From the NCBI GenBank assembly GCA_013288985.1, contig JABDAT010000001.1:92389-130166 (forward strand): a DNA stretch of 37,778 nt. The letters are read 5' to 3'. The notes beneath the pieces are model-generated. The model was not told where the DNA came from. It searched no databases and saw only the letters and a list, made by a program, of their open reading frames with translations. The position numbers and the translations under genes were made by a program. Position 1 is the stretch's first letter, and each line of letters starts with the position of its first letter. The stretch comes from Alphaproteobacteria bacterium. GTDB lineage: Bacteria; Pseudomonadota; Alphaproteobacteria; Rickettsiales; JABCZZ01. This document shows, piece after piece, positions 21,075 through 28,251 of the stretch.

Positions 21075-21893
21075 CTATATTCTTACAGGAATGCCGGCTT
21101 CTTGCAAAGCGGCTTTTGCCTCTGCAATCGTATAGGTGCCATAATGGAAAATAGACGCTGCGAGCACGGCGCTGGCATGCCCTTCTTCTATGCCTTCCAC
21201 CAGATGCTGCAACGTGCCCACGCCGCCTGAAGCAATCACCGGGATGGGCACGGCGTCGGCAATGGCACGGGTAAGCGGGATGTTAAAACCCTGCTTGGTG
21301 CCGTCACGGTCCATGGAGGTAAGCAGGATTTCCCCGGCGCCATATTCCGCCATGCGCTTGGCCCATTCCACCGCGTCGATACCGGTGGCATTGCGTCCGC
21401 CATGCGTAAAAATCTCGAATCGGAGGGCAGGGATCGGGGGGCGGGGATCAGATTTTCCTATTCTTTCTGATCCCTGATCCCTAGTCCCTAATCCCTGCTT
21501 AGCGTCAATGGCTACGACAATGCACTGTGATCCGAATTTCTGCGCAGCCTGACGCACGAATTCAGGATTGCGCACGGCTTCGGTGTTGATGGATACTTTG
21601 TCGGCACCGGCCAGGAGCAGTTTGCGGATATCTTCTAGTGTGCGCACGCCGCCGCCTACGGTAAGCGGCATGAAACATTGCTCAGCGACGCTTGCGACTA
21701 CGTCATATAAAATAGAGCGGTTATCGCTCGATGCGGAAATATCGAGGAAGCACAACTCATCCGCGCCTTGCGCGTCATATAATTTGGCCTGCTCTACGGG
21801 GTTGCCTGCGTCGCGCAGTTCCACAAAATTAACGCCTTTGACAACGCGGCCGTCTTTGACGTCAAGGCAGGGAATAATACGGTTTTTGAGCAT
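21075..21893 (-). CDS. hisF: imidazole glycerol phosphate synthase subunit HisF, with in-frame insert
   Basis: HisF is the cyclase half of imidazole glycerol phosphate synthase. It uses ammonia from HisH to turn PRFAR into IGP and AICAR. The (beta-alpha)8 barrel is intact: [10 protein letters not shown] with D11, [19 protein letters not shown] with D130, [16 protein letters not shown] and VIASGGVG. At 272 residues it is about 20 longer than usual. The excess lies at residues 133-157, between AIDAK and [10 protein letters not shown], where relatives have only a few residues. That loop after strand 5 is encoded by the heptamer palindrome at 21423-21497. The insert is in frame and free of stops, rich in Gly, Pro and charged residues, so the protein is probably functional. 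The gap to hisE is three bases. Confidence 0.95.
21430..21495. repeat. inverted pair of 7-base repeat arrays inside hisF
   Basis: On the plus strand the left arm is three heptamers, GGGATCG, GGGGGCG and GGGATCA (21430-21450). The right arm is four heptamers in opposite sense, TGATCCC twice, TAGTCCC and TAATCCC (21468-21495). The 17-base AT-rich middle (21451-21467) separates them. The arms can pair imperfectly to make a hairpin. The whole unit is read through in the hisF frame; at least the other two frames of the hisF strand contain TAG stops in the right arm, so the insertion phase has been selected. The layout is the same as that of the element in hisH. Confidence 0.85.
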
Positions 21894-24014: not shown

Positions 24015-24547
24015 GTGATCTTCATAATCGGTTTGATGTTTTTATAAAAATAATGTCCGGCGATCATACTTTCATTGACCATCTCATAATAAGGCATAAC
24101 ACCCCATCGTGTATAGCCCGATTCGTGATACAGTTTAAGCGCAGCCTCCTGAGTGGCGCGCACATTGAGCGTTATGACGGAGAATCCTTGCGCCAGAGCC
24201 TCTTTTTCCGCAGCTTGTAAAAGCGCTTTGGCAAGCCCGTGTCCGCGCGCCCAGGGAGCGACGAAATGATTACTGAGGCTGACGTTGAAAGAGGTTGTTT
24301 GCTTAGAGGGACCTGGCTTTAACAGCTGGATGGAAGCGGCGAGTGTGCCATCAATCCTGCCGCCGAACAGCACGCGTTCCGGTACCACCAGCACGCCGCG
24401 CCAGTATGATTCCAGAACATCCGTTGAGGGCGGCACCAGCCAGTTAAACCCAATGCCATCGCGTATGGCATCTTCGGTTGCCAGGCACAGATCGTCCAAA
24501 TCCGCAGTCTTGAATTCGGTAATCGGTTCAACTTTTATATTAGACAT
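24011..24547 (-). CDS. GNAT-family N-acetyltransferase
   Basis: The 178-residue protein has the GNAT acetyl-CoA fold. Strand 4 and the pyrophosphate loop are seen as SLSNHFVAPWARGHGLAKAL (the R-x-x-G-x-G/A loop, here RGHGLAKALL), followed by VITLNVRATQEAALKLYHESGYTRWG, the usual helix-beta end. The substrate is unknown. It overlaps hisH by eight bases and the phosphatase gene by four, so it is part of the his transcript. An N-acetyltransferase at this place in a his operon is not something I recognise as standard. Confidence 0.88.
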   Translation of the reverse strand: MSNIKVEPITEFKTADLDDLCLATEDAIRDGIGFNWLVPPSTDVLESYWRGVLVVPERVLFGGRIDGTLAASIQLLKPGPSKQTTSFNVSLSNHFVAPWARGHGLAKALLQAAEKEALAQGFSVITLNVRATQEAALKLYHESGYTRWGVMPYYEMVNESMIAGHYFYKNIKPIMKIT

Positions 24548-25226
24548 TACGTAATTTTAAGAAGTTTTCGATTAACTGCAACCCAGTTTGCTGGCTTTTC
24601 TCAGGATGGAATTGTACACCCATAATATTGTCTTTGGCAACAATCGCAGTGAGTGCTGTCCCGTATTGGGTCGTAGCAATTGCCTGCGTATTATTTTTGC
24701 AGACCGCATGGTAGCTGTGCACGAAATACGCATGATCACCCGATTGGATGTTTTTTAATAACGGATGCGCAGGTGCGATAAGATTAAGATCGTTCCAACC
24801 CATATGGGGAATTTTAAGAGGCATGAGGCATGAGACATTAGGCATCCTAGAAACTTCCGCCTGTTGCCTATTGCCTGTTGCCCCTATCTTCACCACTTCG
24901 CCTTCAATCCAGCCCAAACCCTTATGCTTTCCATGTTCATAACCTGTCTCAAATAACATCTGCATGCCGACACAGATTCCCAGGAAAGGTTTGCATTTTT
25001 GCAGCACTTGCGTCTCAAGCATCGCGCGCATGCCTGCAATGGCCTCAAGCCCGCTTATGCAATCGGCAAATGCTCCCACGCCCGGTAATACAATATGAGA
25101 AGCATCGGCAAGCACTGTCGGATCGTTCGTCACCACAATGCTTTGATCCATGCTGGCAACATGCTCAAACGCCTTGGCAGCGGAGCGTAAATTGCCAGAG
25201 CCGTAATCGATAATCGCGACAAGCAT
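24540..25226 (-). CDS. hisH: imidazole glycerol phosphate synthase subunit HisH, with in-frame insert
   Basis: HisH is the glutaminase half of imidazole glycerol phosphate synthase and passes ammonia to HisF. The class I amidotransferase triad is C85 (FLGICVGMQMLFE), H207 and E209 (GVQFHPEKS). The start IIDYGSGNLRS is typical. At 228 residues it is about 15 longer than usual. The extra part is at about residues 117-136, between the GEVVKI strand and LKIPHMGWN, and is encoded by a heptamer palindrome (24819-24882). It keeps the frame, has no stop, and leaves catalytic residues untouched. DUF2628 is two bases upstream and the GNAT gene overlaps by eight bases. Confidence 0.95.
   Translation of the reverse strand: MLVAIIDYGSGNLRSAAKAFEHVASMDQSIVVTNDPTVLADASHIVLPGVGAFADCISGLEAIAGMRAMLETQVLQKCKPFLGICVGMQMLFETGYEHGKHKGLGWIEGEVVKIGATGNRQQAEVSRMPNVSCLMPLKIPHMGWNDLNLIAPAHPLLKNIQSGDHAYFVHSYHAVCKNNTQAIATTQYGTALTAIVAKDNIMGVQFHPEKSQQTGLQLIENFLKLRNV
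24820..24882. repeat. inverted pair of 7-base repeat arrays inside hisH
   Basis: On the plus strand the left arm is GGCATGA twice, GACATTA and GGCATCC (24820-24847). The right arm is TGTTGCC, TATTGCC and TGTTGCC (24862-24882), with a 14-base middle. On the opposite strand the right arm reads GGCAACA, GGCAATA, GGCAACA, so both arms are arrays of GGC-starting heptamers facing each other, as in hisF, where they start with GGG. The arms pair only in part (GGC with GCC in each unit). It is translated in frame as part of HisH. Confidence 0.85.
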
Positions 25227-28221: not shown

Positions 28222-28223
28222 GC

Positions 28224-28251
28224 GTTTTCCGTTTTCCGTTTTCCGTTTTCC
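28224..28251. repeat. four tandem copies of GTTTTCC
   Basis: Four perfect 7-base units lie two bases after the hslU stop. On the minus strand they read GGAAAAC, so they begin with GG like the heptamers in hisF and hisH. Only one array is present, without a facing partner. A short hairpin (CATGC/GCATG around 28259-28271) follows, inside a longer ATTTCAT...ATGAAAT symmetry. The unit lies between hslU and the glycosyltransferase gene and encodes nothing. Confidence 0.85.

Follow-up and report, generated by a model that had tools for sequence, protein, structure and literature searches.

Heptamer hairpins with changing sequence in hisH and other genes of a Rickettsiales genome

The in-frame insert of hisH is, in the reading that we prefer and to which we give about half of our confidence, a member of a dispersed class of heptamer hairpins in which slippage and template switching keep the units alike and motifs spread between loci. 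The window analysed here (a stretch of 37,778 nucleotides) belongs to a draft genome (G000; 62 contigs that total 1.31 Mb, completeness 61%), in which about two dozen such elements were found when weaker and one-armed cases are counted. They are hairpins of 60–90 bases made of two facing arrays of some three to four degenerate heptamers each.

The hisH gene (positions 24540–25226, reverse strand, 228 amino acids, recognised from its open reading frame and by homology) carries the insert in frame at 24814–24884 (reverse strand), where about 22 residues (GATGNRQQAEVSRMPNVSCLMP) are flanked by VVKI and LKIPHMGWN. In an alignment with about 110 homologues, nearly all alphaproteobacterial and some 30 of them from the same order, the spacing between these motifs is 22 residues here against about 5–6 in the homologues. 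The preliminary description of this DNA had rightly noticed extra residues before PHMGWN, although the net gain over nearly all homologues, 16–17 residues, is slightly larger than the 15 or so proposed. The only intermediate linker, of about 14 residues, was that of the same-family genome G001, in whose linker DNA no heptamers were visible by eye. An insert of equal length lacking the seven-base periodicity, named beforehand as contrary evidence, was found in none of the relatives, as none has an insert of equal length. The palindrome described earlier was borne out as a hairpin of 65 bases (24818–24882), in which four heptamers of the GAGGCAT type face three and a half of the GCCTGTT type. 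On the forward strand the first array reads GAGGCAT GAGGCAT GAGACAT TAGGCAT in NAG phase (24818–24845) and the facing one GCCTGTT GCCTATT GCCTGTT GCC (24859–24882), with a middle, or hairpin loop, of 13 bases between them (24846–24858, forward strand). The predicted RNA fold of the insert consists of four 5-bp helices (the outermost longer) separated by 2x2 loops at an exact pitch of seven bases (−30.7 kcal/mol, z = −3.5). In the AlphaFold model of HisH the insert forms a low-confidence surface loop between strands (block pLDDT about 50–72), the core being otherwise confident (mean 91.5). Judging from this model, HisH would need no benefit from the insert, which would be tolerated as a disordered surface loop.

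Scanning the genome for a seven-base period instead of a fixed sequence, as had been suggested, is what uncovered these elements. The detector used no motif and combined complementarity between two arms with seven-base self-similarity within each arm; it was applied to 1.09 Mb of G000 (83% of the assembly). Facing arrays scoring at least 40 numbered 18 at period 7, compared with 0, 3, 0, 6 and 0 at periods 5, 6, 8, 9 and 10. The hisH arrays themselves scored 49 and the maximum of the control periods in the same sequence was 42–43, which excludes chance for hisH. The class was revealed only once arm complementarity was added, since lag-7 autocorrelation alone, run on 410 kb, retrieved just the window's own arrays. 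A census of AGG/CCT trinucleotides allowing two mismatches was set aside as not discriminating (36 at period 7 versus 16–35 at other periods); it discriminates only with zero or one mismatch. Two candidates (L139:13641 and L214:17059) were rejected as members, the first being ordinary coding sequence and the second, judging from its translation, a DUF559-type repeat. Predicted folding of the elements was strong, with a median z of −4.4 and values below −2 in 32 of 35.

About a third of the elements are in frame in enzymes, where they occupy surface loops or linkers of housekeeping proteins (hisH, hisF, uvrA, priA with two elements, and purL in G000), and the remainder lie in operon gaps, named from what the DNA on either side encodes (rplS-leuC, rpsP-rimM, rpsL-rpsG, tuf-rpsJ, upstream of rplN, tatB-tatC, ahpC-trxB and others). 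Probable one-armed arrays, with no facing arm, are also in frame in a uracil-DNA glycosylase gene (about eight AGG units, L159:9630–9690) and in tilS and pheT (three units each, L226:4485–4520 and L228:620–650). Genes were named by PDB homology (uvrA, priA, hisH, hisF, purL, pheT) or by reading the translation (uracil-DNA glycosylase, tilS). In one region, L220 on contig G000:C23, a stretch of 10 kb contains three elements, each of them in a gap between genes of the ribosomal-protein/tuf cluster. Within the window, the sister element of hisF (21424–21499, reverse strand) is in frame, with AGGGATC / TGATCCC heptamers around a loop of about 15 bases, and its RNA folds as well as that of hisH (z −3.5). 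A perfect (CGTTTTC)4.1 array at 28223–28251, between hslU and a glycosyltransferase gene, has at most a decayed facing arm and shares its unit with the CGGAAAA of a CT-first element upstream of rimM (L160:10728); it is probably a one-armed member of the class. HisF matches extend over 275–282 codons in G076:C14, G160:C30, G068:C42, G084:C114 and G086:C3, and over about 251–255 in most genomes; by match length only, these five long proteins likely have inserts at or near the site of the window's hisF element.

The class also occurs in the same-family genomes G002 and G003, while a 400-kb sample of G001, of the same family, contained no element. In G002 an AGTGGTC / TGTGATC heptamer palindrome lies in frame in mnmE (L206:3870). 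The genomes of genus g2 (G001–G003) harbour, in addition, a second palindromic repeat of about 85 bases that is sequence-conserved and resembles the Rickettsia palindromic elements, or RPEs (TACGCGGAGGAG...ACGACGACCCCGCGGGGGA...GATGGGGGAAGCGTTCCCCC). It was located at L229, L230 (priA), L259 (uvrA), L171:2050–2200, L264:19560–19700 and L204, and in priA and uvrA it sits in frame in the same linkers as the heptamer elements of G000.

What the units have in common was derived from 225 units of 39 elements, giving the consensus N-A(81%)-G(95%)-K-N-N-Y, in which the A and G percentages are inflated because the phase was chosen on AG. When all sixteen dinucleotides were treated alike, AG still came first (0.74, against 0.25 for its complement CT). 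The AG arm comes first in 35 of the 39 elements, so that the G-rich strands converge and the general layout can be written 5'-(NAGKNNY)n-loop-(RNNMCTN)n-3'. The heptamers are homogenised within an element, above all among the units of one arm and less so from arm to arm: units of the same arm agree at 5.1 of 7 positions, units of the two arms at 4.65 (p=0.0005) and units of different elements at only 3.2. These values, together with the number of elements, agree with the earlier view that hisH and hisF share one layout with different heptamers and thus belong to a structural class rather than being duplicates of a single sequence. Elements at different loci of one genome were more alike (0.674) than those of different genomes (0.628, p=0.0008), and between genomes the same site (0.637) was hardly above different sites (0.619). 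Similarity among copies is mainly confined to the arms, over 15–35 bases, and two loci of G003 have near-identical arm motifs. Pairing of the arms is nearly as good out of register (0.67–0.72 at shifts of ±7 and ±14) as in register (0.72), so it is the homogeneity of the units, and not pair-by-pair compensation, that keeps the arms matched; this register-shift control rules out pair-by-pair covariation.

In the comparison with relatives that had been called for, the orthologous sites of purL and uvrA show the same layout with different heptamers. Of 30 genomes surveyed in the order, 13 bear arrays in the purL linker (12 by score and G117 by eye), a proportion taken from best-matching genomes that is not an unbiased carrier frequency. 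Scores of this linker are bimodal, 12 genomes falling at 34–45 and 15 at 18–23, with none between. G003, with a PurL 87% identical to that of G000, has an array of equal length that reads AGGTTCC AGGTGAC AGGTTCC AGGTTTC ... AAACCTG AAACCCG AAACCTG, compared with AGGCAAA units in G000. Nearly every carrier species has its own heptamers, e.g. GGAGTGT/ACACTCC (G076), CGGTCAG/GGCCGCT (G116), CAGGTAT/GATACCC (G149), CAGTTGT/GGAACTG (G044) and CAGAGTT/ACTCTGA (G086); they differ among all four congeners examined (G025, G044, G094 and G102), and G076 and G102 have a motif in common. Arms of the same purL element match one another at 0.72 and those of other species' elements at 0.54 (p<=5e-5). The linker of element-free relatives is ordinary and of nearly equal length, which implies that the array took over a linker that was already there and hardly lengthened it, if at all. 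On a PurL tree built with the linker left out, presence of the array requires at least 8 changes, and shuffled labels do not require significantly more (p 0.14). Carriers fall in families f1, f5 and f23 and include the 100% complete genome G025 (7 contigs). In uvrA, the linkers of G000, G149 and G124 have arrays, and those of G002, G067 and perhaps G076 have arrays that are more decayed or reduced to one arm. From species to species the heptamers at an orthologous site give way to others, whereas the architecture is retained or arises again, clearly in purL and partly in uvrA.

Under the reading that we prefer, replication slippage by seven bases would homogenise and expand the arms one by one, a switch of template across the hairpin would move the motif from arm to arm, and heptamer motifs would also spread between loci of one genome. 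Template switching has been reported both to give rise to hairpins and to preserve them (PMC8794818), and to homogenise the arms of inverted repeats in coding sequence (PMC8604942). Slippage and template switching are local and alone explain neither the motifs common to several loci of one genome nor the gains and losses, at least 8, on the purL tree. The conserved AG and the AG-first orientation (35/39) suggest, furthermore, some constraint that would not be expected from slippage. Nor was a clean pair of sites before and after insertion seen in the genomes compared, none of which is of the same genus. A bolder reading, which we regard as unlikely, is that these are self-re-creating hairpins found order-wide at fixed sites in essential genes, the word being rewritten in nearly every species and the NAGKNNY phase, the AG-first order and the layout of about 4+4 units remaining fixed; this would imply a dedicated copying or repair activity that works in seven-base steps.

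A non-autonomous mobile element, of which some enzyme copies the whole hairpin into sites that tolerate it, older copies being overwritten time and again so that a genome shows its current motif set, is possible but to our mind doubtful. It would account for the resemblance between loci of one genome, as in the two G003 loci, and for the patchy presence in purL, with its many changes on the tree and a linker struck in three families; yet the copies resemble each other mainly in the short arms, agree in only 3.2 of 7 letters of their heptamers and differ systematically between arms, and no target duplication has been shown. As to the enzyme, a Y1 transposase (Y1_Tnp, RAYT) was detected in 2 of 28 genomes only, and not in G000 (61% complete), and an RVT_1 reverse transcriptase likewise in 2 of 28; G025 and G044, which are complete and carry elements, lack both. 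RAYT and reverse transcriptase are therefore unsupported as generators, being absent from most carriers, which argues against those two enzyme families only.

Selection for a nucleic-acid structure (an RNA stem or a DNA cruciform acting, e.g., in mRNA stability, translation pausing or transcription coupling), kept while its sequence drifts, would fit the strong folding, the complementarity maintained across species in purL and the many copies between operon genes. We consider it improbable, however, given that the purL element is missing, without any sign of a replacement, from every second genome sampled in the order, that pairing is not register-specific and that the host genes have nothing in common. 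Repeats like the GGGNATC of Xanthomonas and Nostoc, retained because their four G-tracts would form a quadruplex, are a much remoter explanation: arrays of about four units, the GGGATC in some hisF units and the convergent pairs formed by the published repeats (PMC4692102) recall them, but most units have only AG or AGG, G occupies position 4 in 53%, and members such as AGTGTGG, CAGAGTT and AGTGCT would, from their sequence, be unable to form three-tetrad quadruplexes. Chance low complexity or an assembly artefact might be feared in a draft of 62 contigs; the excess of period 7 over the control periods, the fact that the elements recur independently in genomes that are complete or nearly so (G025, for example) and the preserved open reading frames leave this a negligible probability.

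Rickettsia palindromic elements are in-frame palindromes that form sequence families and reside in conserved alphaproteobacterial genes as tolerated surface loops. The elements described here are likewise palindromic inserts in frame in conserved genes (hisH, hisF, uvrA, priA twice, purL), but unlike RPEs (mentioned in PMC10969869) they have no conserved sequence beyond the heptamer phase, with 3.2/7 identity between elements. The REP/RAYT system does not match either, as Y1_Tnp is missing from 26 of the 28 genomes, including the carriers G025 and G044. Heptamers have been called the commonest long simple repeats in bacteria, a prevalence that has no accepted reason (cited in PMC4692102 and PMC4679880). 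The nearest known counterparts of the class are the heptamer repeats of Xanthomonas, the P6b hairpin of Nostoc and the four-unit elements of Geobacter metallireducens. The GGGNATC / GGGGA(C/T)T repeats found in Xanthomonas and in Nostoc (Rehm et al. 2015, PMC4692102) prefer four units, are dispersed, unlinked to known mobile elements and discussed as quadruplexes; in Xanthomonas the repeats are 89–93% intergenic, and 70–75 pairs of them are convergent in close proximity. Ours resemble them in being tandem arrays of about four heptamers in convergent pairs; however, they do not have a GGG-tract in every unit (NAGKNNY, many units without GG), vary by element and species where GGGNATC has one consensus per organism, and are in frame in enzymes in about a third of cases. 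The P6b stem-loop of the Nostoc trnL intron is built of class I (TDNGATT) or class II (NNTGAGT) heptamers, one class having repeatedly been replaced by the other in separate lineages (PMC4476775). It shares with our elements a two-sided stem of degenerate heptamers at a fixed site whose motif is replaced between lineages (purL, 13/30), and class II (GAGTNNT) even fits the NAGKNNY phase; but P6b is a single site with two classes in a group I intron, while the present elements are coding or intergenic (no Rfam match was obtained within the window), with many sites and motifs and presence/absence variation. The tandem heptanucleotide elements of Geobacter metallireducens (GGACCGG x4, 49 copies, proposed to be regulatory) are also four-unit arrays, but have one conserved heptamer, and facing arms are not described for them in the excerpt of PMC2700814. 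The TAACTGA repeats of marine Beggiatoaceae (PMC4679880) are dispersed heptamer arrays too, and their reverse complement TCAGTTA contains the CAGTTA phase; in contrast to the present class the heptamer is fixed, and the repeats are direct and nearly all intergenic, upstream of start codons. The class thus stands apart from known heptamer repeats by its motif diversity, its in-frame sites in core enzymes and its turnover at many sites across the order.

Beyond the preliminary description go the NAGKNNY phase, the species-by-species turnover and the published precedents. The purL and uvrA sites form a natural series: the protein around them is conserved, dozens of species can be compared, and some of these have the array and others do not. 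This makes slippage with template switching testable against an enzyme that works in seven-base steps. Structures in DNA that outlast the rewriting of their own sequence can seldom be observed in this way, and the elements also show how non-coding structural repeats add new residues to core enzymes.
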